Below the pieces are notes generated by a model. The model worked only from the letters and a program-made list of their open reading frames with translations. It searched no databases and had not been told where the DNA came from. Of a stretch of 64,000 nt of DNA, positions 35,031 to 55,070 are shown piece after piece. The DNA comes from Polaromonas sp. JS666 (GTDB lineage: Bacteria; Pseudomonadota; Gammaproteobacteria; Burkholderiales; Burkholderiaceae_C), in contig NC_007950.1 in NCBI RefSeq assembly GCF_000013865.1, positions 274,008-338,007 of the forward strand. The letters are read 5' to 3'. The position numbers and the translations under genes are program-made. The first letter of the stretch is position 1, and every line of letters starts with the position of its first letter.

Positions 35031-35065
35031 CAGTTAGAGTTGCCGGACACAATGAAAATTGGTGT

Positions 35066-35084
35066 TTAATAAACGTTCGTTAAG
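35066..35084. promoter_or_regulatory. Possible TetR operator upstream of the reductase
   Basis: TTAATAAACGTTCGTTAAG is a near-palindrome built on AACGTTCGTT, the type of sequence bound by many TetR repressors. It lies about 200 bp before the old-yellow-enzyme gene, whose neighbour encodes a TetR protein. The remaining 35031-35281 stretch holds no gene; its last part carries a very good ribosome site (AGGAGGTAAAAC) for the reductase. Confidence 0.4.
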
Positions 35085-35281
35085 CTCAAGGCAAATGGCA
35101 GCTTTAAAACTTCAAGGTTAGCCATTCGGCACAGGCCGCCATCCGGGTAGGGTCAACCGCCCGGACACCGGTTTTTGCCAGTGTGCCAAGCTTTTAGAAC
35201 GGCCCTGTCATGACCCACGGAATGCCCAATCGGCGGCTTTGTTGAATGCGGATTAACTGAATCACTTTTAGGAGGTAAAAC

Positions 35282-36358: not shown

Positions 36359-36403
36359 CCGTAAAAAGGACAGTTTCACTTTTGAATTGATGGGTCTCTA
36401 ACC

Positions 36404-37015
36404 ATGGCGAAACAAGCTTTCAGACATACACGCGAAGAGATACTCGGGCTGTCGGTGCCGCTTTTCGCAACGATCGGCTTCGACGGGGTTTCGATGCGGG
36501 CTATCGCGGCTGCCGTGGGTGTGACGCCTGCGGCCCTCTACCACCACTTTTCGGACAAGGAGCAGCTCTGTCTGGAGGCTGTCGGCTACGCTTTCATGGA
36601 AAAGGTGGGGCCCTTGAAATCCCTTTTGGTCAGCGCAGGAGAACCCTGGAGCCGGCTCGAAGCATTCGTCATCCAGTTCACGCGCATGCTGGCCAGGGAG
36701 AAAGACTTCCGGCGCCTGATGCAATGGGTGCTGCTCGACAGCAATGAACCGCGCCTGCAAAGCCTGGTGGACTGCGTCTTTCGGGACCTGTTCAACGCGC
36801 TGCACAAGCTCGCCTCAAAGCTCGCCCCGGAGCATGATGCCCACTTGCTGGTCATCTCCATCATCGGCCTGGTGAACTACCCTTTTGAAACCCAGTCGGT
36901 GCGGCGTTTCCTGCCGGGCTACACCGATCAGCAGGAAGACCCCGAGGTCATTGCGCGGCATGTCATCGGCCTGCTGCGCCATGGTCTTGGCGCGGGCCAC
37001 GACGAAAAATCATAG
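36404..37015 (+). CDS. TetR-family transcriptional regulator
   Basis: This 203-residue regulator has an N-terminal TetR helix-turn-helix (TREEILGLSVPLFATIGFDGVSMRAIAAAVGVTPAALYHHFSDKEQL) and an alpha-helical ligand domain. The C-terminal region (LLVISIIGLVNYPFETQSVRRFLPG) resembles CerR-type C-terminal domains. Cys36-like electrophile sensing cannot be judged; a Cys occurs right after the helix-turn-helix (KEQLCLEAVG). It is a likely repressor of the upstream reductase and possibly of the downstream block. Confidence 0.9.
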   Translation: MAKQAFRHTREEILGLSVPLFATIGFDGVSMRAIAAAVGVTPAALYHHFSDKEQLCLEAVGYAFMEKVGPLKSLLVSAGEPWSRLEAFVIQFTRMLAREKDFRRLMQWVLLDSNEPRLQSLVDCVFRDLFNALHKLASKLAPEHDAHLLVISIIGLVNYPFETQSVRRFLPGYTDQQEDPEVIARHVIGLLRHGLGAGHDEKS

Positions 37016-37083
37016 CAATGCCCCGACCAGGGCAAACGTGCGGAGCAGACGTCCCTGCTCCATGACTGCAAGGAGAAGCAACG

Positions 37084-37671
37084 ATGAAATTGAAAACATG
37101 CCTGATCCTGTCGGCACTGATCGTCGGCGCCAGCGTACAAGCGGCGCAAGATCCCGCAGCCAAGCCGGCCGAGCCGGCCAAGGTGTCCGTGCTGCAAAAA
37201 GCGGAGGAAGGCGCGAAGAAGGCGGCAGCAGAAGCCAGGGAGGCAACGCACAAGGCTGCAGAGGCCGCCCAGCGGGCCGCGGAGAAGGCCGAGCAGGCCG
37301 TCAGCGACACCTCGCAAAAAGCTGCGGACGCTGCCCGGCAAGCGGCGCAGGAGGCCGATGAAGCCGCTAAAAAAGCAGTCCGCAAGACGGCAGAGGCCAC
37401 TAAAAAAGCGACCGTAGCGACCAAAGAGGCCGCCCAAAAAGCCGAGGAAGCGGCCAAAAAAGCAGCGGCAGCCACCAAGGAAGCTGCACAGAAAGCCGGG
37501 GAAGCTGCCAAAAAAGCGGCCAAGTCGGGCAAGGAGGCAGCGCAGAAAGCGGCCGAAGCCACGCGGGACGCCGCACAGAATGCCTGGGAAGCAACCAGGG
37601 AAGCCGCCGACAAGGCGCTTGAAACGACCAAGGAAACGGCGCGGGACATCAAGGATGCGGTGACGAAATAA
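37084..37671 (+). CDS. Secreted Ala/Lys-rich amphipathic repeat protein (LEA-like)
   Basis: This 195-residue protein begins with a Sec signal peptide (MKLKTCLILSALIVGASVQA) and is then almost entirely Ala, Lys, Glu and Thr in 11-residue-like units such as KAAEAAQRAAEKAE and KKATVATKEAAQKAEE. The pattern predicts one long amphipathic helix, like group 3 LEA or phasin-like proteins that coat membranes or stabilise proteins under stress. Its likely location is the periplasm. Function is inferred from pattern only. The following gene ends in the same repeats. Confidence 0.75.
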   Translation: MKLKTCLILSALIVGASVQAAQDPAAKPAEPAKVSVLQKAEEGAKKAAAEAREATHKAAEAAQRAAEKAEQAVSDTSQKAADAARQAAQEADEAAKKAVRKTAEATKKATVATKEAAQKAEEAAKKAAAATKEAAQKAGEAAKKAAKSGKEAAQKAAEATRDAAQNAWEATREAADKALETTKETARDIKDAVTK

Positions 37672-37674
37672 GCC

Positions 37675-37704
37675 TTTCCGGGCGGGCAGACTGGCTGCCC
37701 GGAA
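37675..37704. terminator. Hairpin after the first repeat-protein gene
   Basis: TTTCCGGGC and GCCCGGAAA form a 9-bp perfect stem with a 12-base loop, three bases after the stop codon. No T-tract follows on the forward strand, so it may be a weak terminator or an mRNA-stabilising structure. Confidence 0.45.
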
Positions 37705-37762
37705 AACTATCACATCGCTGTGCTTTCGTTTTTCATTTTTATCACTGATAGAGAGGTTTTCC

Positions 37763-38206
37763 ATGTCCGAATCCAACAAACCCGGCGCCACGAGCAAAGA
37801 CAAACTGATCGCCGACATGAAGCGCATCGTCGCCGATGCCGATGAGCTCCTGCGCGCCACCGCCGATCAAGCGGGCGAGAAGGTCGCCGGCTTGCACACC
37901 CGTCTTCAGGAAAATCTGAAGGCGGCCCAGGACCGACTTGCCGAGTTCGCGGCCACGGACGTCGACAAAACCAGGCAAGACCTCCGGGACGCGCTGCAAA
38001 AAATCTCGGACGCGGCCAATCAAGCGGCTGAAGCCGCTGGGGACGCGGCGCAGAAGGCCGAGGATTCGGTCAAAAAGGCGGTCGAGTCCGGTAAAGATGC
38101 CGCCCAGCACGCCGCAGCAGCCGCCAGGGATGCGACCCAGAAAGCAGTTGCAGCCACCAGGGACGCTGCCGACAAGGCACTCGATGCGATGAAAAATTGG
38201 ATGTGA
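37763..38206 (+). CDS. DUF883-type N-domain fused to LEA-like repeats
   Basis: This 147-residue protein starts like DUF883 (ElaB/YqjD) proteins (KDKLIADMKRIVADADELLRATADQAGEKVAGLHTRLQENLKAAQDRLAEF). It lacks the usual C-terminal membrane anchor. Instead the last 65 residues are Ala-rich amphipathic repeats (DAAQKAEDSVKKAVESGKDAAQHAAAAARDATQKA) closely like those of the preceding gene. DUF883 proteins are stress-induced, membrane- and ribosome-associated. The swap of anchor for a repeat helix suggests peripheral membrane binding. There is no signal peptide, so it is cytoplasmic. Confidence 0.75.
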   Translation: MSESNKPGATSKDKLIADMKRIVADADELLRATADQAGEKVAGLHTRLQENLKAAQDRLAEFAATDVDKTRQDLRDALQKISDAANQAAEAAGDAAQKAEDSVKKAVESGKDAAQHAAAAARDATQKAVAATRDAADKALDAMKNWM

Positions 38207-38262
38207 TGAGGGGAATGGCCCATAAGGCCAAAAACGCCATCAACAAGTAGTTCATGGCAAGC

Positions 38263-38292
38263 ACGACCCGCCCACCGATGCGGCCGGGTCGT
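38263..38292. terminator. Hairpin between repeat-protein gene and operon
   Basis: ACGACCCG and CGGGTCGT form an 8-bp perfect stem with a 14-base loop between the DUF883-like gene and the start of the overlapping operon. No T-tract follows. It is a possible attenuator or terminator, so the operon may have its own promoter in 38293-38395. Confidence 0.4.
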
Positions 38293-38405
38293 GTGGAAGA
38301 CATAGGCGCTGGCTACGCTTTCCCACCCGGCGACGGGTATTTGTGATGCGCGGTACCACCATGACATCCAGTTATTCAGGTCACCCCTTCAAGAGGATCA
38401 CCATC

Positions 38406-39107
38406 ATGCAAAACGAAACAGTCAACACCATCGGCGGCGGTAACGATGCAGCGATGCTCGAAGCTGAAGTGCGTAACGCCGTCGAGCAGGGACACGATGT
38501 GCAGAACATTGTGCGGCAACTCACCTTGCGCAAGATCAGCGCGCGCTCGCTCGATATCGAATCCCTGCGGCAGATCGCGAGTGCGGTTTTGCGCGGCGCG
38601 CGGGCAGGAGCGCAAAAGGAGTTGCAGCAGTCAGCGGCGCAAACCGAAATCATGCGGACACGCCTCAAACAGGCCGTCGCCGGGCTGGACGCGGCACTGG
38701 CACAGTTTGCCGAAGCCTCCAAACTGGCCCTAGAAGAAGCGGCGGCCCGGGCGCAGACATTTTCCAGTGAGGACCTCGCGCGCGCGCGCACCGACCTGGA
38801 AAGCCTGGAGGCGATGTTCCTGGAAACCCTGCAAAACTCGGCCTCGGGTGCCAAGGATGCCACAGGAGAAATCCTGTCCGATCTGGCAAGGCACGCCCGC
38901 CTCTATGGCTCCGCCGTGCGCGCACAGTTGAAGGAAACCCTGGCCGTCATCACGCACCAGCTTGGCACGACGGGACGCACTCAGGTTGTTGCCGGCCTGC
39001 ATCTGGCACAAGCCACTTCCAACCTGGTGCGCCAGATCGCCGCCGGCGTGCTCACCGGTCTGGCCGATCACGTCAAACCCGGCCATCCCAAAGGCAAGGG
39101 AGACTGA
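38406..39107 (+). CDS. Uncharacterised helical protein, first gene of the lipid operon
   Basis: The 233-residue protein starts at an ATG with AAGAGGA eight bases upstream; a longer start at 38343 lacks one. It is predicted mostly helical: an N-terminal part (AAMLEAEVRNAVEQGHDVQNIVRQLTLRKISARSLDIESLRQIASAV), a central coiled-coil-like section and a C-terminal LHLAQATSNLVRQIAAGVLTGLADHVKPG. I do not recognise a characterised family. Its stop overlaps the kinase start (TGATG), so the two are translationally coupled and probably work together. Confidence 0.8.
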   Translation: MQNETVNTIGGGNDAAMLEAEVRNAVEQGHDVQNIVRQLTLRKISARSLDIESLRQIASAVLRGARAGAQKELQQSAAQTEIMRTRLKQAVAGLDAALAQFAEASKLALEEAAARAQTFSSEDLARARTDLESLEAMFLETLQNSASGAKDATGEILSDLARHARLYGSAVRAQLKETLAVITHQLGTTGRTQVVAGLHLAQATSNLVRQIAAGVLTGLADHVKPGHPKGKGD

Positions 39108-40861
39108 TGCTGTGGCAGGCACTGACGGCGGTGCGCGACATCGGCCGCCTGCACGACATCGCCTCGATCCTGATCCGCTACGGCTTTGGCGACATGGTGC
39201 GCCGGATGGGGCTGGCCAATGCGCTGGAGCGGGCCGGGCAGGCGCTGCACTGGAACGAAGCGCAGGAACTGGCGCACCTGGAGCCGCCCGCCCGGGTGCG
39301 CCGGGCGCTGGAGGAATTGGGCCCGACCTTCGTCAAGCTCGGCCAGGTGCTGGCTACCCGCATCGACCTGTTCGAGCCGGAATGGATCATTGAATTCGGC
39401 AAGCTGCAGGACAGCACGCCGGCCGCGCCCTGGGCCGACATCCGTCAGCAACTCTGCGAGGACCTGGGCGCACCGCCCGAGGAGGTGTTCGCCGCCTTCG
39501 ATCCCGAGCCGCTGGCGGCGGCCTCCATCGCACAGGTGCACCGCGCCCGCCTCGAAGACGGCAGCGAGGTGGTGGTCAAGGTGCGTCGGCCCGGCATCCG
39601 GCCGATCATCGAGGCCGACCTGCGCTGGCTCGCCAGGCTGGCACAACTCATTGAAAGAGAAAGTCCGGAACTGCGCAGTTTCCGCCCGCAGGAAGTGGTG
39701 CGCCAGTTTACCCAGTCGTTGCGGCGCGAACTCGATTTCGCCGGCGAATGCCGCAACGCCGAGCACATCGCAGAGAATTTTGCCGGCTATGCCGACCCGG
39801 ACTCGCCCGGTCTCCCGTCCAGCGGGGAAGTGGTGCAAACAGAGGCACCCGAGGAGCGGCCCGCCCTCATCGTCATTCCCCGCGTCTATTGGCAGTGGAC
39901 CGGCGAGCGGGTGTGCGTGCAGGAATTCATCAATGGCATTTCCGGGCGCAAGCTTGCCGCCGTTGACCAGGCCGGCCTCGACCGCAAGATCCTTGCCCGG
40001 CGCGGCGCGCGCGCGGTACTGAAGATGATCGTGGAGGACGGTTTCTTTCACGCCGACCCGCACCCCGGCAACGTGTTCTACCTGCCCGGCAACCGCATCG
40101 CCTTCATTGACTTCGGCATGGTCGGGCGGCTCACCGAGGAGCGGCGCGACCAGTTGACCGGGCTGCTGCTGGGGCTGGTCAAGCACGAGCCGCGCCGCGT
40201 TGCCGACGTGATGCTCGACTGGACCGGCGACGGCGCCATGAACGAAGACGGCCTGCTGCTGGAAATTCAGACGTTTGTGCAGCAGTACCATGGCGTGGCG
40301 CTCAAGCAGCTCCGGCTCGGCGCCATGCTCTCCGACCTGGTGGCCATTTTGCGTCAGCACCAGCTGGCCTTGCCGCCCGATCTGAGTCTGCTGATCAAGG
40401 CCTTCATCTCGCTCGAAGGCATGGGCCGCGAGCTCAACCCCGACTTCGACATGGCTGGCGAGGCGCTGCCTTTGCTGGAACAGGCGCTGCGCGCACGTTA
40501 TGCACCTACGGCGCTCCTGCAGCGCGGCTGGCGTGGGGTCAGCGAAGCGCTTTCCCTGGTGGCCGGTCTGCCCCAAGACCTCTCCCGGCTGCTGCGCGCG
40601 GCCCGGCGCGGGCGGCTGGAAATTCACATTGATGTCACGCACTTGAAACGTGTCGGCAACCAGCTCGACAACGCCGCCAGCCGGTTGACGGTCGGCATCG
40701 TTATCGCCGCGCTCATCGTCGGCTCCTCCATCGTCATGACCGTGCCCGGTGGCCCCACCTGGCTGGGCCTGCCCTTCTTCGGCCTGCTCGGCTTCATCGG
40801 CGCCGTCATCGGCAGCCTCTGGCTGCTGCTCTCGATCTGGCGCAGCGGGGGCAAGGAGTGA
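39107..40861 (+). CDS. UbiB/ABC1-family atypical kinase-like protein
   Basis: This 584-residue UbiB/ADCK protein carries the family motifs: KxGQ in FVKLGQVLATRIDLF (residues about 75-90), the Ala-rich loop in AAASIAQVHRARLEDG, the VVVKVRRPGI lysine, ExD-type QSLRRELDFAGECRN, HADPHPGNVFYLPGNRIAFIDFGM (catalytic and metal-binding residues) and two C-terminal membrane helices (ASRLTVGIVIAALIVGSSIVM; LPFFGLLGFIGAVIGSLWLLL). Such proteins are membrane ATPases that help extract or handle quinone and other isoprenoid lipids. No ubiE/ubiJ genes are near, so this is probably a paralogue with a specialised lipid role. Confidence 0.93.
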   Translation: MLWQALTAVRDIGRLHDIASILIRYGFGDMVRRMGLANALERAGQALHWNEAQELAHLEPPARVRRALEELGPTFVKLGQVLATRIDLFEPEWIIEFGKLQDSTPAAPWADIRQQLCEDLGAPPEEVFAAFDPEPLAAASIAQVHRARLEDGSEVVVKVRRPGIRPIIEADLRWLARLAQLIERESPELRSFRPQEVVRQFTQSLRRELDFAGECRNAEHIAENFAGYADPDSPGLPSSGEVVQTEAPEERPALIVIPRVYWQWTGERVCVQEFINGISGRKLAAVDQAGLDRKILARRGARAVLKMIVEDGFFHADPHPGNVFYLPGNRIAFIDFGMVGRLTEERRDQLTGLLLGLVKHEPRRVADVMLDWTGDGAMNEDGLLLEIQTFVQQYHGVALKQLRLGAMLSDLVAILRQHQLALPPDLSLLIKAFISLEGMGRELNPDFDMAGEALPLLEQALRARYAPTALLQRGWRGVSEALSLVAGLPQDLSRLLRAARRGRLEIHIDVTHLKRVGNQLDNAASRLTVGIVIAALIVGSSIVMTVPGGPTWLGLPFFGLLGFIGAVIGSLWLLLSIWRSGGKE

Positions 40862-43485
40862 GCGGACCGCAGGCGTTTGGTCTGGATCCGCTCGTCACGC
40901 TCGCGCTGGCGGTCGCGTTCACCCTGTTCGTCGTCCTGGCATGGCTTGCGCTGCGACGCGGCCGGGCGCGGCGCAGGGCGGCGGAGGCGCCGGCAGCAGG
41001 CGATGCCGGGGCTGCCCAGCCCCGCAAGATCGTCATCTTCTACTCGTCCATCGGCCATGGCCACATCAGCGCCGCGCAGGCCATAGAGCAAGAAATTGGC
41101 CAGTTGGAGCCTGGTGCGCGCGTGATCCTGCAAGACATCCGCGAGTTCATGCACCCGCTCTGGCGCTGGGTGGATGAGCGGCTCTACTGGTTCATCGCCG
41201 GCAATCTTCCCGAAAGCTTCGACGCGCTGTTCCATGCCCTGCAGGCGCGCGGCAAGCGGGTGCCGTCGCTGGCCTGGCTGTCCAACGACTACCCGCAAGA
41301 CAAGGTGCGCGCCTTCCTAGAGGCGCAGGCGCCCGACGCGATTCTTGCCACGCATTACGGATCGGCGCAGGTGCTCGGGACCTTGCGCGAGCGTGGGCTG
41401 CTGGCGCAGGTGAACATCGGCTGGCTGCACACGGACTTCTTCGAAGGCTATTTCCCGCGCATCTCGAAAATGATCGACCGCACCTTTCTCGCCCACCCCG
41501 AGCTGGAAGCGCGCTGGCTGGCCGCCGGCGTGGCACCCGACAAAGTCACCACCAGCGGGATGCCGGTGCGCGTGGCGGCCGCCGACTGCGGTACCCGGGA
41601 GATGGCGCTCACCGCGCTGGGGCTGGCCCCGGATGCGCCCACCGTGCTCATCACCTCGGGCAAGGAGGGGGTGGGCGACTACGCTGTCGTGGTGGAGAGC
41701 CTCGCCCGCCACCACCAAGGCCCGCTGCAGATCATTGCCGTCTGCGGCGCCAACGCGCGGCAGCAGGCGCTGCTCACTGCATTGCAAAAACGCCTGCCGG
41801 CGCCGGCAACGCTGAAGGTCTGCGGCCTGGTGCCGCACGCCGACCTGCTGGCCTGGATGCGCATGGCCGACCTGTTGATCACCAAGGCCGGGGGCATGAC
41901 GCCGGCCGAGGCCTTTGCCATGGGCACGCCGACGATCCTGCTGGACGTGGTGAGCGGCCATGAGCGGGAAAACGCCGCCTTGTTCGTCCGGCTGGGGGTG
42001 GCCGAGCTGGCCGACACCCTGGCGCAGGCGGGCGAGCTGGCCGCCGCCGTGCTGGCCGACCCGCAGCGGCAGGCGGCGATGCGCCACGCCCAGCACGCCT
42101 TTCACGACAGTGCCGACCTCGGGCGCATCGCCCGCTTCGCGCTCGACCCGGCCCTGCCCGCGCCGGGTATGACGCCGGACTTCGGCGCCGAGCACGGCAG
42201 CGCCGTCACCGACATCGACGCGGCGCTGGCGCGGCTCCAGGCCGAGGCGCCCTGCGACATCGAGCTGCTGCTGTCCTACTCGACCGCCCAAACACCGCAG
42301 CGCGTGGTGCTGGAAAACCCGTTCGGGCACATTGCCATCCGCGTCGACGACACCGTCTACAGCGCCAACTATGTGGCCGTGCCGGGACACGACCCGAACC
42401 TGCTGCAGCACGTGACGCTGGCCGATTACCTGTACGGCGTGCAGCCGCCGTCGCAGGTGCACACCAACACCTACGGCATGGCCTACGGCCGCGAGACGCT
42501 CGGCTTGCGGGTGGCGGGCGTGGCGGCAGAGCGCAAGGCGGCGATGGTTGCCGAGGCGCACCGGATCGAAGATGAGTTTGGGCAAGGCCGCCTGCTGTGG
42601 GATCGCAGCGAGTTCAATTGCGCCGACGTGGTGGTGCGCCTCCTGCGCGCGGGCGGCTATGACCGCTCGCCACCGCTGGGGCGGCGGTGGCTGCCGGTCA
42701 TGCCGCTGGACATTTTCGAGGAAGCCCGGCAGGCCTGCGAGGACGACGCGTCCTTGTACATGGAACTGGTGGCCTACCGGCAGATACCGGGCGCCAACGC
42801 AGCCTATCGCTTCTCGCGTTTTCCGCTCTCGCTCGGACAACCGCTACGCTCAATGGCGCGGGCGCTGCGCGAGGCGCCGCAAGAACCCCTCGAAGCGGCC
42901 GCGTCCAAACAACTGACCGGTTATTTCGGCGACCAACAGCTTTATTTCGAGGACCTGCGCGGCCACGGGGCTGGCGCCCTGGCCGACGATCCGGCGCATT
43001 TCAGCCGCGCGCAGCGGCGCCTGGCCGACGCCCTGGCGACCGACCTGCGGCGCCTGCTGGCGGCTCAGGCCAGACGGCCCCTGCGCGAGATCGGGCGCCT
43101 GGGTGAGCTTGACGGCGCCCAGGACATCCGGCGCCTGCTGGAGCGCAGCCTGGCGCTGGCGCGCATCGCCACCGAACGGGCCGACGAGGTGCTGCAAGAC
43201 CGGGGGGCGCGACGCATGCGGGCGCTGTTCACCGAACTCGTGGACGGGTACGGCCGGATCGACGCCTGGCGCCTGCGGCGCCAGGAGATCGAGACCTATC
43301 TCAAACGCTTCCAGGTCTTCGAGGCCGCCGTAGGGCGTGAATTCCCGGCCCGCCATGGCGCGCGACATGCGCGCGCAACGACGCTTCAGCGATCACTGCG
43401 GTACGGGATTCGGCGTCTGCGCCGGCGCGTCGGTGGGCTGCACCGGCCCACGGGTCATGGGCCAGACAAGGGGGCAAGCCAGTGA
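40858..43485 (+). CDS. MGDG-synthase-type glycosyltransferase fused to papain-like domain
   Basis: This 875-residue protein starts at GTG, overlapping the kinase stop (GTGA). Residues 10-32 form a membrane anchor. Residues about 57-400 are a GT28-type diacylglycerol glycosyltransferase: IVIFYSSIGHGHISAAQAIE (acceptor-binding start of MGDG synthase), NIGWLHTDFFEGYF, VLITSGKEGVG and the nucleotide-sugar site MADLLITKAGGMTPAEAFAMGTPTIL. Residues about 465-605 look like a circularly permuted papain-fold domain (DUF4105/NlpC-LRAT-like): LENPFGHIAIRVDD with His491 and SEFNCADVVVRLLRAGGYD with Cys588. A helical C-terminus and basic tail follow. The fusion suggests synthesis plus acyl or amide processing of a lipid. 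The N-terminal half is confident, the second domain moderately so. Confidence 0.82.
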   Translation: MSGPQAFGLDPLVTLALAVAFTLFVVLAWLALRRGRARRRAAEAPAAGDAGAAQPRKIVIFYSSIGHGHISAAQAIEQEIGQLEPGARVILQDIREFMHPLWRWVDERLYWFIAGNLPESFDALFHALQARGKRVPSLAWLSNDYPQDKVRAFLEAQAPDAILATHYGSAQVLGTLRERGLLAQVNIGWLHTDFFEGYFPRISKMIDRTFLAHPELEARWLAAGVAPDKVTTSGMPVRVAAADCGTREMALTALGLAPDAPTVLITSGKEGVGDYAVVVESLARHHQGPLQIIAVCGANARQQALLTALQKRLPAPATLKVCGLVPHADLLAWMRMADLLITKAGGMTPAEAFAMGTPTILLDVVSGHERENAALFVRLGVAELADTLAQAGELAAAVLADPQRQAAMRHAQHAFHDSADLGRIARFALDPALPAPGMTPDFGAEHGSAVTDIDAALARLQAEAPCDIELLLSYSTAQTPQRVVLENPFGHIAIRVDDTVYSANYVAVPGHDPNLLQHVTLADYLYGVQPPSQVHTNTYGMAYGRETLGLRVAGVAAERKAAMVAEAHRIEDEFGQGRLLWDRSEFNCADVVVRLLRAGGYDRSPPLGRRWLPVMPLDIFEEARQACEDDASLYMELVAYRQIPGANAAYRFSRFPLSLGQPLRSMARALREAPQEPLEAAASKQLTGYFGDQQLYFEDLRGHGAGALADDPAHFSRAQRRLADALATDLRRLLAAQARRPLREIGRLGELDGAQDIRRLLERSLALARIATERADEVLQDRGARRMRALFTELVDGYGRIDAWRLRRQEIETYLKRFQVFEAAVGREFPARHGARHARATTLQRSLRYGIRRLRRRVGGLHRPTGHGPDKGASQ

Positions 43486-44453
43486 ACGAACCACAAACCA
43501 GCAAAGCCCCGGCCGCAGGCCTGACGCCGCCCAGGCGGCCCCGGATCGGCTTGGCGCTGGGCAGCGGTTCGGCGCGCGGACTGGCGCACATCGGCGTGCT
43601 GCGCGCCTTGAAGGAGGCCCACATCGAGGTCGATGTGGTGGCCGGCACCAGCATGGGGGCGGTCATCGGTGCGGTTTTCGCCGCCGGCAAGCTCGACGGC
43701 CTGAGCGCCAGACTGCGCAATCTCGACTGGCCGGGCATCGTCGCCTTGCTCGACCCGGTGTTCCCCCGCTCGGGGCTGATTGACGGTCAGAAAATCGCCG
43801 AATTCGTGCGCGCCCATGTGCCCAGCGCCCGCATCGAGGACCTGCTGCTGCCCTTTGCCGCCGTGGCCACAGACATCACCAATGGTGAGCAAGTCGTGGC
43901 CACGACGGGCGACCTGACCGAAGCGGTGCGTGCCAGCATCGCCGTGCCCGGCATCTTTACCCCGGTGCGCAGCAACGGCCGCATCCTGGTCGATGGCGGG
44001 CTAGTCAATCCGGTGCCGGTGAGCGTGGCGCGCGCCATGGGCGCCGACCTGGTCATCGCGGTCGACCTCAACCACGACATCGTGGCGGGCCGGCTGTCCC
44101 ACCCCGCCGCCCACGCCAATGGCAACGGCCATGGCCCCATCATGGCGCGCCTGCTGGAGAGCCTGCAGGCCATCAACAGCCCGGTGCTGGCGCAGTTCGA
44201 GGACTGGCTGCACAAGCCCCCCCTGGAGCCGCTGCCCGGCATTTTCGAGGTGCTGCTGGCCTCGCTCTACATCATGCAGGCGCGCGTCACCGAAGCCGAC
44301 CTGCGGCAAACCCAACCCGACCTCCTGATCCAGCCGCCACTGGGCGCGGTGCGCTTCATGGAGTTCGACCGCGCTGAAGAAATCATCGACATCGGCTACC
44401 ACAGCGCGGCCGAGCAACTGGCCCGCTGGACAAGAACGCCAACCCATGACTGA
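43482..44453 (+). CDS. Patatin-like phospholipase (RssA-like)
   Basis: This 323-residue patatin-like serine hydrolase has the oxyanion motif GLALGSGSARGLAHIGVLRA, the nucleophile elbow AGTSMGAVIGAVFA and the Asp of the Ser-Asp dyad in LVDGGLVNPVPVSVARAMGADLVIAVDL. These enzymes cleave acyl chains from phospholipids. There is no signal peptide, so it acts on the cytoplasmic face. Its ATG overlaps the glycosyltransferase stop, implying a shared substrate or pathway. Confidence 0.94.
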   Translation: MNEPQTSKAPAAGLTPPRRPRIGLALGSGSARGLAHIGVLRALKEAHIEVDVVAGTSMGAVIGAVFAAGKLDGLSARLRNLDWPGIVALLDPVFPRSGLIDGQKIAEFVRAHVPSARIEDLLLPFAAVATDITNGEQVVATTGDLTEAVRASIAVPGIFTPVRSNGRILVDGGLVNPVPVSVARAMGADLVIAVDLNHDIVAGRLSHPAAHANGNGHGPIMARLLESLQAINSPVLAQFEDWLHKPPLEPLPGIFEVLLASLYIMQARVTEADLRQTQPDLLIQPPLGAVRFMEFDRAEEIIDIGYHSAAEQLARWTRTPTHD

Positions 44454-45255
44454 CACGCATTCCATGAACTTCCCCGAGACCGTGATCGCCGGCGTCCACG
44501 CCGCCGTGGCGAGCACCCTGACCTGCGAGGCCGTGCCGGTCCGCGGCGCCTTGCGCCTGCTGCTGTCGGACCAACATACGCCGATCCGGGCACTGGTGAC
44601 CTGCAGCCTCCATGCAGGCCAGCCGGGCATCGACGCCGGCACGGCGCTGGACCTCATTCACATCGGCTTGCAGCAATTGCATTCACGCGTTGACGCGACA
44701 ACTGGCGCGTCCGCGCTACTGGGCACCGGCGCCACCGTGCTGGCGGGTGACTACTTGACCACCGGGGCTTTTCGCTTGCTGGTGCGCTGCGCTGACATGC
44801 GCGTCCTGGCGCTGGTTTCCGAGGCGGTCAACCGGGCTTCGGAGCTGGAAACCACCCAACTGGGCCTGGATCCAGACGCCCGAGACGATCCGTCGCGGCT
44901 GTTGCAGACCCGGCAACAACTGGCGGCCCCGCTGGGTGAGGCGGCTGGTGCTGCGGGTGCCACCCTCGCGGGCTACCCGGAGCCACTCGCCGGCACGGCC
45001 CGGCGTTACGGCCAATACCTTGTTTCAAGCCACGTTTTGCAACAGGAAGCCGATGCCATGGACATCTCCGAGGCACGCACGGCCCTGCAGGACGCCGCGC
45101 TCGATCTGTGCCGCCAGGCGACGCAAGAAGCGCGGGCCATCGCCACGGCCACAGGCAACGGACGCCCGCTCGAACTGGCTGAACTGATCGCGGCCAGCCT
45201 TGGCGCCAAGGCATCGGCATGCAAACCCAAAACTATTACCTCGACATCATCATGA
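44446..45255 (+). CDS. Degenerate polyprenyl-synthase-like protein
   Basis: This 269-residue protein shows the fold landmarks of trans-isoprenyl diphosphate synthases: DAGTALDLIHIGLQQLHSRVD where active enzymes have EllHxasLvHDD, and GTGATVLAGDYLTTGAFRLLV matching the conserved GN-AVLAGDyLla segment, followed by SELETTQL. The first Asp-rich motif is lost (QQLHSRVD) and no second DDxxD is present. It is therefore probably not catalytic; a lipid-binding or regulatory role is plausible. It overlaps the patatin gene by eight bases and the efflux gene by four. Confidence 0.7.
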   Translation: MTDTHSMNFPETVIAGVHAAVASTLTCEAVPVRGALRLLLSDQHTPIRALVTCSLHAGQPGIDAGTALDLIHIGLQQLHSRVDATTGASALLGTGATVLAGDYLTTGAFRLLVRCADMRVLALVSEAVNRASELETTQLGLDPDARDDPSRLLQTRQQLAAPLGEAAGAAGATLAGYPEPLAGTARRYGQYLVSSHVLQQEADAMDISEARTALQDAALDLCRQATQEARAIATATGNGRPLELAELIAASLGAKASACKPKTITSTSS

Positions 45256-46352
45256 AAGACCCTCTTGTGGAAAAAAGAAAAAACCGCCTCCTCTACCTGG
45301 CGCCGCTGGCGCTGGCCGCACTCCTGGGTGCTTGCGGCAAAGCGCCGGAGGCCCCTGCCGCATCGACGACGATCAGCCGCCCCCTGCCGCTCATGACCGC
45401 GTCCGCCGGGGCGCCACTTGAATACACGGCGGTCGGCTCGGTGGTGTCGGACCAGCGCGTCGAGGTCGCCTCGCGGTTGAGCGGCTATATCCGCGACATC
45501 CTGGTGCAGGAGGGCGACCGGGTGCGGCGCGGGCAGTTGCTGGCCCGCCTGGACGCGTCGGACGTGGAAGGCGGCATTCGCCAGGGCCAGGCGGCGGGCG
45601 GCGCGGCAGAGGCGGCGCTGCGCGATGCACAGATTGACCTGGAGCGCTTCCAGCGTTTGTTCGAGCGCGGCAGCGTCTCGGACAACGAATTGCGCAAGGT
45701 GCGCCTGAAGTTCGAGGCCGCGCGCGAGGCCCGCAACCAGGCGCGCGCCGGTCTGGACACGGCGCTGGCCCAGCGCGCCTACGCCGAGATCATCAGCCCG
45801 GTGGACGGCGTGGTGGTGGCGCGCCACAAACGAACTGGCGATCTCGCCCTGCCCGGCATGCCGCTGCTGACCCTGGAGTCGGGCCGCGGCCTGTTGTTCG
45901 AGACCTTCGTGGCGGAGGGCCAAGTCGCCGCCATCGCGGCCGGCCAGCCGGTGCAAGTCAACATCGACGGCGTGCCCGCGCCGCTCAAGGGCACGGTGAG
46001 CCGGGTGGTGCGCTCGGGCGACCCGGTCTCGCGCAGCTACCAGGTCAAGATCGCCCTGCCCGAAACGGCGGGGCTGATGCCCGGCATGTTCGGGCGCGCG
46101 GCGTTCGGGCTCGGTGCGAGCCAGGCGCCATTGGTGCCCAGACAGGCCTTGGTCGAGCGCGGCGGGCTCACCGGCGTTTTTGTGGTGGACGGCGAAGGCC
46201 GGGCACGCTTTCGCTGGCTGCGCATAGCCCGCGAGTGGCCCGATCAGGTCGAGGTGAGTGCTGGTCTGGCCGCCGATGAGCGCTTCGTGGCAGCGGCTAC
46301 ACCGGCCCTGCGCGAGGGCGACCGCGTCACCGCCGCGAAGGAGGCGCAATGA
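45252..46352 (+). CDS. RND efflux periplasmic adaptor lipoprotein
   Basis: This 366-residue membrane-fusion protein has a lipoprotein signal (LLYLAPLALAALLGACG; lipobox LGAC). The lipoyl/hairpin/barrel order is typical: EVASRLSGYIRDILVQEGDRVRRGQLLARLD, a short coiled-coil hairpin, then AEIISPVDGVVVARHKRTGD and the beta-barrel. The ATG at 45252 overlaps the upstream stop (ATGA), which decides the start over an in-frame ATG at 45219. It connects the pump to the outer-membrane channel encoded downstream. Confidence 0.93.
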   Translation: MKDPLVEKRKNRLLYLAPLALAALLGACGKAPEAPAASTTISRPLPLMTASAGAPLEYTAVGSVVSDQRVEVASRLSGYIRDILVQEGDRVRRGQLLARLDASDVEGGIRQGQAAGGAAEAALRDAQIDLERFQRLFERGSVSDNELRKVRLKFEAAREARNQARAGLDTALAQRAYAEIISPVDGVVVARHKRTGDLALPGMPLLTLESGRGLLFETFVAEGQVAAIAAGQPVQVNIDGVPAPLKGTVSRVVRSGDPVSRSYQVKIALPETAGLMPGMFGRAAFGLGASQAPLVPRQALVERGGLTGVFVVDGEGRARFRWLRIAREWPDQVEVSAGLAADERFVAAATPALREGDRVTAAKEAQ

Positions 46353-49300
46353 GCCAGCACAAGCTCAACAGCGCCGGCCGCCTGGCGAATCTCTTTGTCA
46401 CCTCCAAGCTGACCATTTTGTTCATGCTGGCTTGCATCCTGCTCGGGCTACTGGCCGTGACGCTGACCCCGCGCGAGGAAAATCCGCAGATCGTGGTGCC
46501 CGGCGCCCAGGTATGGGTGACACTGCCCGGCGCCTCCGCCGAGGAGGTGGAGGAACTGGTGATCCGCCCGCTGGAGGGCATCGTCAAGCAGATTGCCGGC
46601 GTTGATCACACGTATGCGACCGCCGTGAATTCGATGGGCGTGCTGATGGTGCAGTTCAAGGTCGGCGAGGACAAGGAAAAATCGCTGGTCAAACTCTACG
46701 ACCGGGTGCTGGGGCAGCGCGAGCGCCTGCCTGCGGGCGCGGGCGAGCCGCTGATTCGCAGCGTGGATGTGGACGACGTGCCCATTGTCACCGTCACGCT
46801 GGCCTCCGAGATCTACGACGATTACGCCCTGAAGCGTCTGGCCGACCGCCTGATGGAAGGACTGCGCAGCCTGGACAAGGTCTCTGCCATTTCCGTCAAG
46901 GGCGGGCGCGACCGGGAACTGCGCATCGAGCTGGACCCGCAGCGCCTGCAGGCCTTCGGCGTCACGCTGGACCAGGTGCATGCCACCCTGCGCGCAAGCA
47001 ATGTTGCCGCGCCCCTGGGAACGGTCGTGCAACAGGGCCAAAACCGCCAGGTGTTCCTGGACGGCTTTCTGAGCTCGGCGCAAGACCTCAAGCGCCTGAT
47101 CGTGGGCAGCCACGCCGGACGCCCGATTTACCTGGGAGATGTGGCGCAGGTGATCGACGGCCCGCCGCAAGAGCGCACGCACCTCAGCCGTCTCGCTTTC
47201 GGCCCGGCGGACGGGCGTTTTGGCAAGACGCAGCAGGCGGAGATGCCGGCCGTCACATTGGCAGTGGCCAAGAAAGCCGGTAGTAACGCCGTCTTTGTTG
47301 CCAACGATGTGCTTGAGCGCATCGAACGCATGAAGGCGCAATTCGTGCCGACGGGAGTCGAACTGGTCGTTACCCGCAACGATGGCCAGAAGGCGGATGC
47401 CGCCGTCAGCGGGCTGATTGAGCACCTGGGTATCGCGGTGCTGGCCGTGTTCCTGGTGACTGCCGCGTTCCTGGGACTGAAGGAAGCACTGATCGTGGGC
47501 GTGACCGTGCCGCTGATCCTGGCCCTGACCCTGGGCGCGGCCTATCTCTTTGGCCTGTCCATCAACCGGGTTTCGCTGTTCGCGCTCATCCTGTCGCTGG
47601 GGCTGCTGGTCGATGGCGCGATTGTCGTGATCGAAAACATCCACCGCAACTACAGCCGTCTTGGCAAGCAGGACAAACGGCTGGTCACGGTGCAGGCCAC
47701 CAACGAAATCGGCAACCCCACCAACCTGGCGACGCTGGCGGTCATGCTGGTGTTCGGCTCGCTGCTGGTGGTCAGCGGCATGCCGGGGCAGTATTTCTAC
47801 CCCGTCGCTTTCAACGTGCCGGTCGCCATGGCGGCCTCGCTGCTGGTGGCCTACGCGGTGGTGCCCTGGGCCGCCAACCGCTGGCTCAAGCTCGGTGAAG
47901 GGCACGATCTGGAAGACCACGATACCAAGGACCGCCTGCATCGTTTCTACCGTCATCTGATGTCGCCGCTGGTGGATCGCTCGCGCAGCCGCTGGCTTGC
48001 GTTCCTGTTGGCGGGATTGGCCATTGCCGTATCGCTGTTGCAACCGGCCTGGCAATTCGTGCGCCCGGCCGGTTTGGGTGGGCCGCAGTCCTGGTTCGGC
48101 GTCGAGCTGGCCATGATGCCCAAGGACGACAAGAACACCTTCAACATCACCCTGGACATGCCCGCGACCGCGCCGGTGGAGGCGACTGATCGGTTCGCGC
48201 GCGAAGTCGGTGCGCTGCTGCGCGAGAACGCCTACGTTCGCAACTACCAGAGCTGGATCGGCGAGGCCGGCGTGATCGACTTCAATGGCTTGCTGCGTGG
48301 TTCCGGCAATAAGCAAGGGCCACACGTCGCCGAGATCCGCGTCAACCTGCTGAACAAGGCTGATCGGAGTAAGACCTCGATCGCCATCGTGCGCGAATTG
48401 CGGCCCACACTGCAGGCTATGGCCGCGCGTTACCCCGGCAGTACGGTGCAGTTGGTCGAGGACCCGCCCGGGCCGCCGGTGCGCGCCACCGTGCTGGCCG
48501 AAATCTACGGCAAGGACTTGCAACAACTGCGCACGCTGTCCGCGCAGGTCAAGGCGGCCTTCCAGCAGACGCGCGACATGGTGGAGGTGACCGACTCCGA
48601 GGCCCAGGACGTCTACCAGTACCGCCTGACGGTGGACCGGGAAAAGGCCGCGCTGTCCGGGCTGAGCGTGGCCGAAGTAGCGGTCGCGCTGCGTCGGCTC
48701 ATCGACGGCGAGGAAATGGGTCGGGCCCGTATCGCTGGCGAGAAGAACCCCGTGCCCATCCGCTTGCAGATTCCCCGGCGCCACCAGATCGATCCCGCAC
48801 TGCTGGCACGCGTGTCCGTGACCAACCGGCAGGGCCAGCGGGTGCCGCTGTCCGAGGTGGTACAAGTCGTCCCCGGCGCAGTCGACCGAACGATTTCGCA
48901 CAAGGATGGCGAGCGCGTCACCTACGTCGGCGGCGAACTCGAATCCACCGCCCCCGTCTATGCCGTGCTCGACCTTGACCGGCGATTGGACGGCTTGCTG
49001 CTCGCCGATGGCAGCCGACTCACCACCGGCAACCTGCGCCTGAACCCGGTCGCGCCCGACACCCTGGAGGGCCCCCGCCTGCTATGGGACGGCGAACTGC
49101 GCATGACGCTGGATACCTACCGCGACATGCTGGGTGCGCTAGGCCTGGCGCTGACCTTCATCTTTCTGGTGCTGGTGGCCTACTACCAGTCCTTCAGCCT
49201 GCCGCTGGTCGCCATGGCGGCGATCCCGCTGGGGCTGGCGGGCATTTTTCCGGGGCACTGGCTCATGGGGCAGCCCTTCACGGCCACGTCCATGATCGGC

Positions 49301-49630
49301 ATCATTGCGCTGGCCGGGGTGGTGGTACGCAATTCGCTGCTCATCATCGATTTCGTGCTGGATTACCGGCGCCAGGGCATGGACTTGCGCGAGGCCATTC
49401 TCGAAGCCGGCGCGGTGCGCCTGCGGCCCATCCTGCTGACGGCACTGGCCATCATGCTGGGCAGCGCCGTGATGCTGTCCGACCCGGTGTTCGGCGGACT
49501 GGCGATCTCGCTGATCTTCGGCACATTGGCCTCCACCGCGCTCACCCTGGTCGTGGTGCCGCTGTTGCTGTATCTGCTGCTGCGCTACAAGGACCGGAAA
49601 GAAGCCATCATGGAAAAAGGAACCTTATGA
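46349..49630 (+). CDS. RND efflux inner-membrane permease
   Basis: This 1,093-residue RND permease has 12 membrane segments with two large periplasmic loops. N-terminal landmarks are LFVTSKLTILFMLACILLG and NPQIVVPGAQVWVTLPGASAEEVEELV. The proton-relay Asp lies in TM4 (LLVDGAIVVIENIHRNYSRL), and the second half includes AGVVVRNSLLIIDFVLDYRR and DPVFGGLAISLIFGTLAST. It starts inside the adaptor stop (ATGA). It is of the broad AcrB/MdtB-like group rather than a clear metal pump (no CzcA DDE signature seen). Given its operon it may export a lipid or lipophilic product. Confidence 0.95.
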   Translation: MSQHKLNSAGRLANLFVTSKLTILFMLACILLGLLAVTLTPREENPQIVVPGAQVWVTLPGASAEEVEELVIRPLEGIVKQIAGVDHTYATAVNSMGVLMVQFKVGEDKEKSLVKLYDRVLGQRERLPAGAGEPLIRSVDVDDVPIVTVTLASEIYDDYALKRLADRLMEGLRSLDKVSAISVKGGRDRELRIELDPQRLQAFGVTLDQVHATLRASNVAAPLGTVVQQGQNRQVFLDGFLSSAQDLKRLIVGSHAGRPIYLGDVAQVIDGPPQERTHLSRLAFGPADGRFGKTQQAEMPAVTLAVAKKAGSNAVFVANDVLERIERMKAQFVPTGVELVVTRNDGQKADAAVSGLIEHLGIAVLAVFLVTAAFLGLKEALIVGVTVPLILALTLGAAYLFGLSINRVSLFALILSLGLLVDGAIVVIENIHRNYSRLGKQDKRLVTVQATNEIGNPTNLATLAVMLVFGSLLVVSGMPGQYFYPVAFNVPVAMAASLLVAYAVVPWAANRWLKLGEGHDLEDHDTKDRLHRFYRHLMSPLVDRSRSRWLAFLLAGLAIAVSLLQPAWQFVRPAGLGGPQSWFGVELAMMPKDDKNTFNITLDMPATAPVEATDRFAREVGALLRENAYVRNYQSWIGEAGVIDFNGLLRGSGNKQGPHVAEIRVNLLNKADRSKTSIAIVRELRPTLQAMAARYPGSTVQLVEDPPGPPVRATVLAEIYGKDLQQLRTLSAQVKAAFQQTRDMVEVTDSEAQDVYQYRLTVDREKAALSGLSVAEVAVALRRLIDGEEMGRARIAGEKNPVPIRLQIPRRHQIDPALLARVSVTNRQGQRVPLSEVVQVVPGAVDRTISHKDGERVTYVGGELESTAPVYAVLDLDRRLDGLLLADGSRLTTGNLRLNPVAPDTLEGPRLLWDGELRMTLDTYRDMLGALGLALTFIFLVLVAYYQSFSLPLVAMAAIPLGLAGIFPGHWLMGQPFTATSMIGIIALAGVVVRNSLLIIDFVLDYRRQGMDLREAILEAGAVRLRPILLTALAIMLGSAVMLSDPVFGGLAISLIFGTLASTALTLVVVPLLLYLLLRYKDRKEAIMEKGTL

Positions 49631-50922
49631 ACCGCTCGATAAAAGTTCGCCGCCTGTTGCCGCTGGCGGCTCTGGCCGCTGCGCTGCTGGCCGGCAACGC
49701 CGCCGCTGAGTCCCTGCAACAGGCATGGGACACCGCGCTGACCGTTGACCGTGGGCTCAAAGCGTCACGTGAAAGCAGCGCCGCCGCTGCGAGTCTGCTG
49801 GAGGCGGCGAAATCCGCCCGTCTGCCCAATGTGGCGCTGGAGGCGGGCTATACCGCCCTCGGTGAGACACCGGCGGCCAAAGTTGATTTTTTTGGCCAGT
49901 CGCTGCAAATGCCGCTGGCGCAGAAGGGCAGCGCCGCCTACCGCGCCATGGCAACGCTGCCGCTCTACACCGGCGGGCGCATCACGCGCGGCATTGATGC
50001 CGCCACGGCGAGCCTGGACGCGGCGCGGCTGGGCGAAAGCGCCGACACCCAAAACCTCAAACTGCGCGTGGCGGATGCCTATGTCAACGTGCTGCGCGCC
50101 AGCCGCATGCTGAAGGTCACCGAGAGCCACGTCGCCAGCCTGCAGGCCCATGCACGGGATGTGGGCAACCTGCATGAGCAGGGCATGGTGGCCAAAAGCG
50201 ACCTGCTCTCGGTGCAGGTGGCCCTGGCCGATGCGCGCCAGCGCCACCTGCAGGTGGCCAATGGGCTGGATCTGGCGCGCGCCGCCTACAACCGCCTGCT
50301 GGGGCGGCCGCTGGAGCAGCCCGTCGCGCTCGACGACCTTTCGCCCGAGGCGACGCAAGAGCCGCTCCCCGCCCTGAGCGAGCGGGCACTGGCGCAGCGC
50401 AGCGAGCTGGCGGCACTGGCGCAACAGATTGAAGCGATGCGCCACCAGGCCGCCGCCGTGCGCGGCGAAACCGCCCCGCAGGTCGCGTTGTCCGGCGGCT
50501 ACGGCTACCAGGAGAACCGCTACCAGGTACACCCGGGGCAATGGATGATCACGCTGGGAGCCAAATGGAACCTGTTCGACGGTGGCGTGGTCGGCCACCG
50601 CGCCAACGCGGTTGAGCGCCAGGCCGCGGCATTGACGGAGCAACGCGACGAGCTGGCCTCCGTCATCGCCTTGCAGGTGCGCCAGACCTGGCTGGACGTG
50701 CAAGAGACCCGCAAGCGCCTCATCGTCACCCAGTCGGCCATCGCCCAGGCCGAGGAAAACCTGCTCGTGGCGCGCGACCGCTATGCCAACGGCCTGTCCA
50801 CCCATACCGAGGTGCTGGATGCCGAGACCTTGCGTACCGGCAGCGAGGGCAACCATGCCAATGCGCTGTCTGATGCCGCACTGGCGGGGTTGCGGCTCAA
50901 GCGCGCCACGGGCGAGCTCTGA
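49627..50922 (+). CDS. TolC-family outer-membrane efflux channel
   Basis: This 431-residue protein has a signal peptide (LLPLAALAAALLAGNAAA) and two OEP repeats (SLQQAWDTALTVDRGLKASRESSAAAASLLEAAKSARLPNVALEAGY; and KWNLFDGGVVGHRANAVERQ with LQVRQTWLDVQETRKRL). The ATG at 49627 overlaps the permease stop (ATGA); the open frame extends far upstream inside the permease, but that part is not real. It completes the tripartite pump. Confidence 0.94.
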   Translation: MNRSIKVRRLLPLAALAAALLAGNAAAESLQQAWDTALTVDRGLKASRESSAAAASLLEAAKSARLPNVALEAGYTALGETPAAKVDFFGQSLQMPLAQKGSAAYRAMATLPLYTGGRITRGIDAATASLDAARLGESADTQNLKLRVADAYVNVLRASRMLKVTESHVASLQAHARDVGNLHEQGMVAKSDLLSVQVALADARQRHLQVANGLDLARAAYNRLLGRPLEQPVALDDLSPEATQEPLPALSERALAQRSELAALAQQIEAMRHQAAAVRGETAPQVALSGGYGYQENRYQVHPGQWMITLGAKWNLFDGGVVGHRANAVERQAAALTEQRDELASVIALQVRQTWLDVQETRKRLIVTQSAIAQAEENLLVARDRYANGLSTHTEVLDAETLRTGSEGNHANALSDAALAGLRLKRATGEL

Positions 50923-50934
50923 ATTCGAGGACAC

Positions 50935-51247
50935 TGATGCCATCAAAACACCCCCAAAACGCCTGCTCGTTCCGGCGGCGGTGGCCTTGCTTGCTGTCAT
51001 GGGCCTCGCCGCCGGGTGGTGGCTGCTGCGCCAGCCGCCGCTGCCAGAAGGCCTGATCCAGGCCAACGGCCGCATCTAGGGCGATCATTACCTCGTCGCC
51101 GGCAAGATGCCGGGGCGCGTGGCCGAGCTCTTCGCCAGAGAAGGCGACGCGGTGCAAAAAGACCAGTTGCTGCTGCGGCTGGATGCCGCCCAGGTGGACG
51201 CCAGGGTGGTGCAGGCACGTCAGGCGGTGGTCGCGTTAGCGCATAGC
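50935..51247 (+). pseudogene. Broken second HlyD-type adaptor gene
   Basis: Frame 2 encodes a membrane anchor (KRLLVPAAVALLAVMGLAAGWWLL) and the start of a HlyD/EmrA-type adaptor (LIQANGRI-stop-GDHYLVAGKMPGRVAELFAREGDAVQKDQLLLRLDAAQVDARV). It carries an in-frame TAG at 51077-51079 and is cut off near 51240. It follows the TolC gene closely and once extended the operon. The remaining 51248-51477 stretch has no feature I can support. Confidence 0.75.
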
Positions 51248-51477
51248 CCATGATCAGTCTTCGCACCAAACCGTCGACTGCCAGGTGGTCATGATCACCC
51301 CTACAATTTGTAGTGTCAATGCCTCGCGGCACAACCGGTCACGATCAACAGGAATGCGCCGCGCTTCAAACACCTCAAGGAAAACCATGCCCACTTACCA
51401 CATCGAGATGATGGCAGCTTGCACTGCCGAAGCCCTACTCTAACTTTCATGCTTCGGAATGCGAAGCAGCCCGAGCC

Positions 51478-54122: not shown

Positions 54123-54236
54123 GTGGGTCTCCATTCGCCGTTTAAAACCGGCGAGTGTTGTGAATAACGATGTATGGCGCGGACGGCTTCGCACGGCCAA
54201 AGGGCGACCTGCTGGCTTGCACCAGCGTCTGCTCGC

Positions 54237-54989: not shown

Positions 54990-55003
54990 ATTGACTCCTG
55001 TAA

Positions 55004-55031: not shown

Positions 55032-55070
55032 GTTTGTTGGTGCTTGCCTGAACGTTGAACTGGCGTCGGC

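Follow-up and report, generated by a model that had tools for sequence, protein, structure and literature searches.

Organization of the locus

A stretch of 64,000 nucleotides from Polaromonas sp. JS666 (NC_007950.1, 274,008 to 338,007, forward strand), hereafter called the window and used for all position numbers, carries a compact gene unit in which a glycosyltransferase (GT) is encoded together with a UbiB-like ATPase and an RND-type pump. Eight genes, all on the + strand, form its body. They encode a DUF6781 protein (38406..39107; 153.8 bits against a cut-off of 27), a UbiB/ABC1-family ATPase (39107..40861), a GT of the GT28/monogalactosyldiacylglycerol (MGDG)-synthase type that continues into an unnamed C-terminal Cys-His domain and a helical bundle (40858..43485), an RssA-like, patatin-like lipase (43482..44453), a prenyl-synthase-like protein derived from octaprenyl-diphosphate synthase (PPS; 44446..45255), an RND periplasmic adaptor (MFP; 45252..46352, with an alternative start at 45219), an RND permease (46349..49630) and a TolC-family outer membrane factor (49627..50922). 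A preliminary description of this DNA had placed eight genes between 38406 and 50922, with overlaps at nearly all junctions. Its coordinates are right. Each of the seven junctions is an overlap of 1 to 8 bp (1, 4, 4, 8, 4, 4 and 4 bp in the order from DUF6781 to the TolC-like protein). The eight genes are real, but the bounds drawn around them were too narrow, since the unit starts about 3.3 kb further 5' and its 3' end is truncated compared to relatives.

The start of the unit is marked by an operator-like site, TTTAATAAACGTTCGTTAAG (35065..35084, + strand), the only match in the window to a motif shared with relatives. It is followed on the same strand by an NADH:flavin (flavin mononucleotide, FMN) oxidoreductase (35282..36358; PF00724, E 1.2e-81) and a TetR-family regulator (36404..37015; TetR_N 55 bits, CecR_C 16.5 bits, under the cut-off of 24). 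The oxidoreductase gene sits between operator-like site and TetR in the window and in L006 (87% identity); L053, L056 and L057 have relatives of 66% past the 3' end of the cluster. Next come kaa1 (37084..37671, +), encoding a coiled protein rich in Ala and Lys, whose start resembles a signal peptide and which has weak, sub-cut-off matches to Ag473- and phasin-like families, a strong RNA hairpin (37675..37705, +; -22.4 kcal/mol, z -3.8) and kaa2 (37763..38206, +), encoding a helical DUF883 protein (42.3 bits against a cut-off of 25.4) with a sub-cut-off apolipoprotein-like match. The palindrome TATCACTGATA, which we take to resemble the tet-operator core, lies ahead of kaa2 at 37740-37750 and is found in exact form in the window only. 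At the other end, the window copy is evidently truncated at 50922 in comparison with relatives. What follows (50981..51238, +) is the remnant of an HlyD adaptor, 69% identical over 87 of 380 residues, inside which the reading frame closes. HlyD is the gene that opens an ABC-exporter module in relatives, and the window keeps only 87 residues' worth of it.

Conservation and reassembly of the gene set

A locus scan with the GT as bait, covering 84,980 species genomes non-exhaustively, gave 26 loci. GT, TetR, MFP, RND permease and UbiB occur together in 16 of them (UbiB is full-length in 14 and fragmentary in L014 and L027), and these core loci span Beta- and Gammaproteobacteria in three gene orders. 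This refutes a synteny restricted to the strain. A strain-specific curiosity is ruled out by the 26 loci taken with the pPNAP01 element, which is listed in PMC2789088. The other loci comprise two contig pieces of a second Zoogloea oleivorans copy (L024, L026), three degenerate loci (L003, L007, L025), one that lacks UbiB and has TetR, GT and a pump that is interrupted (L016), and four with GT and no UbiB (L008, L010, L011, L023); in L010 the sole RND genes are a distant pair (27-32%) on the opposite strand.

Layout A is that of L002, L004, L005, L006, L009, the window and pPNAP01; layout B is found in L017-L020 (Zoogloea, Aromatoleum), and layout C in L012-L015, L021, L022 and L027 (Halomonas, Sulfuricella, Extensimonas, Pseudomonas SI8, Tepidicella, Stenotrophomonas). 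Patatin is present in 11 of the 16 core loci and PPS in 10; DUF6781 occurs in layouts A and B, with no match in layout C. The constant core is therefore TetR, UbiB, GT, MFP and RND, and not all eight genes, the constancy of the GT being biased because it served as bait. Thus, the proposal that the eight genes form one set stands for the co-occurring core and not for patatin, PPS and DUF6781, which are not always kept.

Three single loci may be noted. Z. oleivorans holds a layout-B copy (L017) in addition to the pieces of a layout-A copy. In a Rhodoferax locus (L009:10001-12483) the GT reads as two pieces of 246 and 635 aligned residues, through an assembly error or a broken gene. A metagenome-assembled genome (MAG) of the Acidobacteriaceae (L016:7911-20363) combines the operator motif with TetR, the adaptor, the GT and an RND gene that an insertion has split, again without UbiB; it is possibly an older or reduced form of the cluster.

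The layouts that are closest to each other differ from gene to gene. Mean identity (in %) is highest between A and C for UbiB (77, against 68 for A-B and 65 for B-C), between B and C for the GT (71.5, against 60.5 for A-C and 58 for A-B), and between A and B for patatin (72, other pairs 60-62), the RND permease (84, other pairs 59) and the TolC-like protein (79, other pairs 26-28), while PPS is near even (74, 70 and 75). Lineage-specific rates could account for part of this disagreement. A tree built from 22 GTs places layout A with GTs of Thiobacillus and of a member of the Myxococcota (97/96); layouts B and C form another group, next to which stand Acidobacteriota GTs (100/100). A single clade of the 16 sampled cluster GTs was rejected (p-AU 2e-60, or 6e-4 with L007 added) in a tree that has some long branches. 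The gene-specific nearest layouts and the rejection of a single GT clade indicate that the set was reassembled, and the simplest reading would be that selection acted on composition, rather than that one block was passed down by descent.

Junctions, operator and expression signals

The junctions of seven layout-A loci (window, L002, L004, L005, L006, L009, L028) were compared with one script. The 49 cells repeat the window values, save for a 20-bp gap between PPS and MFP in L004, two cells of L002 and one of L006 that were unreadable, and the UbiB/GT start, which the method misplaced in L009 and L028. The operator-like motif has one match in the window and none in 100 shuffles, and a single match in the 5.9-Mb genome when up to three mismatches are allowed. 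In slightly varied form, the motif TTTAATnAACGTTCGTTAAG lies 5' of TetR in L002, L003, L004, L005, L009, L025, L026 and L028, and 5' of the FMN oxidoreductase in the window and L006. Layout B (L017-L020) has a variant of it, and the Acidobacteriaceae locus also has the motif. In layout C, another palindrome with the same GTTCG core precedes the first gene (MFP) in six of the seven loci checked, the pattern not being found in L022. The TetR protein is presumed to bind the operator-like motif. A consensus scan of 35000-51270 (+ strand) gave no sigma-70-like promoter, nor one at the operator-like site; it says little, because consensus sites were no more frequent than in shuffles (2 against 1.7) and none fell at the operator.

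Compared with five layout-A relatives, the window gives dN/dS ratios of 0.07 to 0.60 (one cell missing; kaa2 highest) across the eleven genes that start with TetR and end with the TolC-like one; for PPS they are 0.17-0.39. Co-occurrence of the core in three gene orders, kept overlaps, dN/dS below 1 and one operator-like site support the view that the set behaves as one unit. The idea of one stoichiometric system survives in this form only, as the strong hairpin after kaa1 makes it less likely that all genes are expressed equally.

The glycosyltransferase and its Cys-His domain

The N-terminal half of the GT scores over the cut-offs of PF06925 and PF04101 and has an MGD1-like fold and conserved GT motifs. 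It shares these domains, fold and motifs with MGDG synthase and the processive diacylglycerol glucosyltransferases of family GT28, from which the window protein differs by an added N-terminal helix, the conserved Cys-His domain and the helical bundle. It is predicted to make a diacylglycerol glycolipid. Its score with the diglucosyl diacylglycerol synthase model PRK13609 of NCBIfam is 127.7 bits, under the curated cut-off of 500. Pfam gives no match to the Cys-His domain, which covers roughly residues 450-690, or to the helical bundle. The residues H491, N587 and C588 are kept in 22 of 22 and 61 of 61 alignment rows; in two wider sets, H is present in 43 of 44 and 13 of 15 rows (the others being gaps) and N and C in all rows. 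The order of these residues, His before Asn-Cys, was compared with that of permuted NlpC/P60-type enzymes (Lnb_N, LRAT), and an LRAT match (E 0.068) appeared in one of 44 members only. The long GT is rare: surveys of 274 genomes of the class and of 399 of the order each yielded a single one, that of the window itself, and three further genomes of the order match the GT half only.

UbiB-like ATPase, patatin and dead prenyl synthase

The UbiB-like protein scores 243.5 bits with PF03109 (cut-off 22.9) and has the KxGQ, Ala-rich loop, HADxHPGN and DFG motifs, each found in 15 of 15 members (VKVxRP in 11 of 15). It stays under the equivalog cut-offs (TIGR01982, 450 against 487.55; PRK04750, 340.9 against 667), and the genome has two more ABC1 genes of full length at other places. 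The biochemistry of the UbiB family is a long-standing open question. The patatin (PF01734, 111.7 bits, cut-off 27.7) carries the GxSxG and DGG motifs, as do all 12 members, and scores 217.6 with the RssA equivalog PRK10279, under its cut-off of 272. The homology of PPS to prenyl synthases is clear (PF00348, 31.4 bits, cut-off 27; E 2.2e-16 to octaprenyl diphosphate synthase). Its early designation as a dead prenyl synthase is borne out by the alignments, in which the paired aspartates of the catalytic motifs are lost: DDxxD is absent from all 21 aligned members (18 of 45 found, plus the window, L017 and L021), and when PPS is aligned to a solved enzyme the first motif falls on LHxxVD and the alignment stops before the second. 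A lone patatin gene with 28 residues of a PPS-like gene, 88-93% identical, lies among insertion sequence (IS) elements on plasmid pBN3 of Paraburkholderia aromaticivorans (L029:19974-21018) and is read as an operon remnant.

The pump and additional transport modules

The RND permease matches PF00873 with 515.8 bits (cut-off 28) and falls outside the named subfamilies of NCBIfam: none of the 11 drug and metal pump models listed is over its cut-off, the best reaching 456 of 1250. A simple drug pump is a less attractive candidate on account of these scores, which are far under the cut-offs of the named models. In L046, L048, L049, L052, L053, L056 and L057, the cluster continues 3' with an HlyD adaptor, a double ABC ATPase and two ABC2 permeases; among NCBIfam names the ATPase comes closest to RbbA, but stays under the cut-off. 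Herbaspirillum RV1423 (L048) extends further with MlaF-MlaE-MlaD. Its MlaE reaches 391.8 against a curated NCBIfam cut-off of 315, the domain scores are 240.2 for MlaE (cut-off 22.5) and 75.2 for MlaD (25.1), and MlaF, at 357.4, is under the equivalog cut-off of 441; L052 retains a piece of MlaF, 91% identical. The original suggestion that lipid functions are coupled here to envelope transport is strengthened by the ABC exporter and MlaFED of the relatives.

Mobile context and neighbouring genes

The gene set moves between unrelated bacteria, and several copies of the cluster lie in conjugative surroundings. L028, L012, L013 and L015 share the order relaxase, cargo, LysR-TraG, which is the order in which integrative and conjugative elements of the Tn4371 type hold their cargo, and TraI_2 genes adjoin the layout-B copies. 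A search of the 64-kb window gave no relaxase or TraG match to pPNAP01 proteins. Mobile DNA abounds 5' of the operon, where Tn3-family and IS110-family transposases lie at 9210-11888, 27326-28648 and 28910-31447. DNA at 31485-32235 is about 86% similar to the MqsR/MqsA toxin-antitoxin pair of a Polaromonas plasmid, and an integrase-like gene with a KfrA-like plasmid gene (32197-34784) suggests the backbone of a plasmid or integrative element. An open frame of 1053 residues with ALTTAQ repeats (PF20080) occupies 14080-17241. Beside the operon, 53052-59295 and 61317-62564 encode an alcohol dehydrogenase, a flavin-containing (FMO)/Baeyer-Villiger-like monooxygenase, an alpha/beta hydrolase, a GAF-Fis regulator and a CoA-transferase III; by its gene families, this cluster looks like one for ketone or subterminal-oxidation catabolism.

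Proposed function

Our tentative reading, in which the biochemistry is drawn from the protein families, is that the unit makes a glycolipid and exports lipophiles, and so adapts the envelope to hydrocarbons. The signal would be a hydrophobic compound, be it a hydrocarbon, an intermediate of catabolism or a lipid that has been disturbed; it would free TetR from the single operator and allow expression of the unit. The membrane-anchored GT28 enzyme would then glycosylate diacylglycerol, its Cys-His domain might edit acyl chains or the product, and patatin might supply or trim acyl lipids. The UbiB-type ATPase would pull a lipophile from the inner membrane, with the dead PPS as lipid-binding partner where present, and the coiled apolipoprotein/phasin-like proteins might coat or carry it. 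The RND pump, joined in fuller copies by the ABC exporter and MlaFED, would take the glycolipid or lipophile across the envelope, the outcome being an envelope suited to growth on, or exposure to, hydrocarbons. A more ambitious version, unlikely to hold in all its parts, would make the unit a horizontally moving factory and exporter of envelope lipid, put together on two or more occasions from separate GT lineages, in which a two-headed glycolipid synthase/editor and a UbiB extractor with a dead PPS sensor/carrier deliver a new surface glycolipid through RND, ABC and Mla and render hosts hydrocarbon-proof.

A hydrocarbon-linked background was found for six hosts. Published sources give a coal-tar-waste site for Polaromonas naphthalenivorans CJ2, toluene degradation for Z. 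oleivorans and an oil well for T. baoligensis; Hydrogenophaga aromaticivorans D2P1 is a xylene/benzene degrader, Ps. frederiksbergensis SI8 came from soil under a fuel bladder and E. soli H3M7-6 from coking-plant soil. Diesel is named in two record titles, that of the degenerate L003 and that of L023, which has the GT only. Hydrocarbon backgrounds are also presumed, partly from names, for Herbaspirillum RV1423, Aromatoleum and Halomonas 54_146. A fusion of ferredoxin reductase and membrane desaturase, with AlkJ-, AlkK- and AlkH-like genes, adjoins the pPNAP01 and T. baoligensis copies, and the same operon lies about 7 kb from the S. maltophilia EA1 copy, across transposases. The fusion, annotated as a fatty acid desaturase, is read as putatively AlkB-type, and its operon as alkane-oxidation-like; at E <= 1e-120 it occurs in 2 of 399 genomes of the order (56-60% identity). 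AtuA (acyclic terpene) genes lie 5' of two Rhodoferax copies. Genes for aromatic hydroxylases of the soluble di-iron monooxygenase (SDIMO) class are enriched in the locus genomes: 7 of 25 have them (GT-only genomes included), compared with 18 in the 399 genomes of the order, of which 17 pass the family cut-off (Fisher p 2.5e-4); in a subset picked after seeing the data the figure is 7 of 14. An alkane-specific role is discarded as the whole story, for AlkB-like genes are near just three copies and the SI8 genome paper reports no alkB.

A lead to the product comes from Extensimonas, in which the GT is present in two of three genomes (E. soli and E. perlucida, not E. vulgaris; species assignment deduced by us). 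Table 1 of PMC11936349 lists unknown glycolipids for E. soli and, for E. perlucida, a glycophospholipid and an aminoglycolipid; its entry for E. vulgaris names no glycolipid. Table and text conflict on other E. vulgaris lipids and agree on glycolipids. We treat this apparent correlation as a lead, not a test.

A number of observations weigh against our reading. The Extensimonas correlation spans three related species, with thin-layer chromatography data partly from separate studies, and in these copies UbiB is fragmentary and patatin and PPS are absent. More generally, patatin and PPS are missing from five of the seven layout-C loci and PPS also from L002, so that the proposed partners are not always present. 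Comparison of the Cys-His domain with four Lnb_N proteins by hhalign gave a probability of 4% (E 0.01, NC motif aligned), and Foldseek with this domain gave no match at E <= 0.001. Long-form GTs exist without the cluster in other phyla, and the GT is therefore not specific to the system. Some hosts have no hydrocarbon link: E. perlucida came from pesticide-plant sludge, and a partial cluster belongs to a fen Acidobacteriaceae MAG. Finally, the SDIMO statistics ignore relatedness, use one order as control, count the window genome in both the 25 and the 399, and concern a class that includes phenol hydroxylases. A genome search found no SDIMO in the window's own genome.

The main rival is a solvent-tolerance island with no dedicated glycolipid, in which the RND pump (with ABC and Mla) would expel solvents and restore outer-membrane asymmetry while patatin, UbiB and GT repair the membrane. 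We regard it as possible and rather unlikely. RND, TolC and MlaFED parallel the known solvent-tolerance parts TtgGHI/SrpABC and Ttg2, the SI8 host came from under a fuel bladder, and the SDIMO enrichment fits as well; yet the GT, admittedly the search bait, is retained in copies that shed other genes (L003, L007, L025), the Extensimonas correlation points to a glycolipid, and the RND permease scores far too low for any of the named pump models listed. Improbable in our estimation is a role in uptake and storage, whereby amphipathic coat proteins, UbiB and Mla-like parts would import hydrocarbons or terpenes and hold them in inclusions. The weak apolipoprotein-, perilipin- and phasin-like matches in layouts A and C and the alkane-type and AtuA genes nearby speak for it, but the families to which the RND and RbbA/YbhF-type parts belong are exporter families, and the coat-protein matches, DUF883 excepted, are under Pfam cut-offs.

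We give little credence to prenyl-lipid or quinone homeostasis, in which the UbiB-type ATPase and the dead PPS would respond to lipophile stress by tuning ubiquinone or undecaprenyl lipids. Although the UbiB motifs are intact and PPS, a descendant of octaprenyl diphosphate synthase, is constrained to the low dN/dS given above, PPS is absent from six of the 16 core loci (L002, L012, L013, L014, L015, L027), and GT, patatin and pump would be left unexplained. Mere hitchhiking, with unrelated cargo stacked in a conjugative-element slot, is very improbable: copies do lie in conjugative contexts next to other cargo, and patatin and PPS come and go, but the overlapping junctions, the core shared by three gene orders, the gene-specific nearest relatives, the dN/dS below 1 and the one operator-like site all argue against it.

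Relation to known systems and implications

No described pathway of this composition was found in the open-access literature searched, as the preliminary description had supposed, although the combination of lipid synthesis with an RND exporter is known in kind. Lipid-biosynthesis clusters with an RND-superfamily exporter are known from the mycobacterial MmpL loci and from hopanoid HpnN, where lipid-making genes are likewise packed with an RND-type pump. The present unit differs in having a tripartite AcrB-family RND pump with adaptor and TolC, a GT28 enzyme, UbiB, patatin and a dead PPS, on mobile DNA. With TtgGHI/SrpABC and Ttg2/Mla it shares the RND pump, Mla in one copy and some solvent-exposed hosts, but its operon includes lipid-synthesis and lipid-handling genes, and its RND permease is under the named-pump cut-offs. 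The HlyD, double ABC ATPase and ABC2 permeases of layouts A and B recall ybiH/ybhGFSR and yhiI-rbbA-yhhJ of E. coli; the likeness to ybiH extends to the layout-C regulator (CecR_C 79.5 bits), the window TetR being below the CecR_C cut-off. Here, in contrast, the ABC module is embedded in a lipid/RND operon, and it is lost from the window copy.

If our reading is true, hydrocarbon degraders carry, beyond catabolic enzymes, a transferable module that alters the envelope itself, which would bear on bioremediation and on solvent-tolerant production strains. The UbiB-family ATPase and the dead PPS would also gain a testable context in lipid traffic, that of a compact mobile operon with their likely partners.

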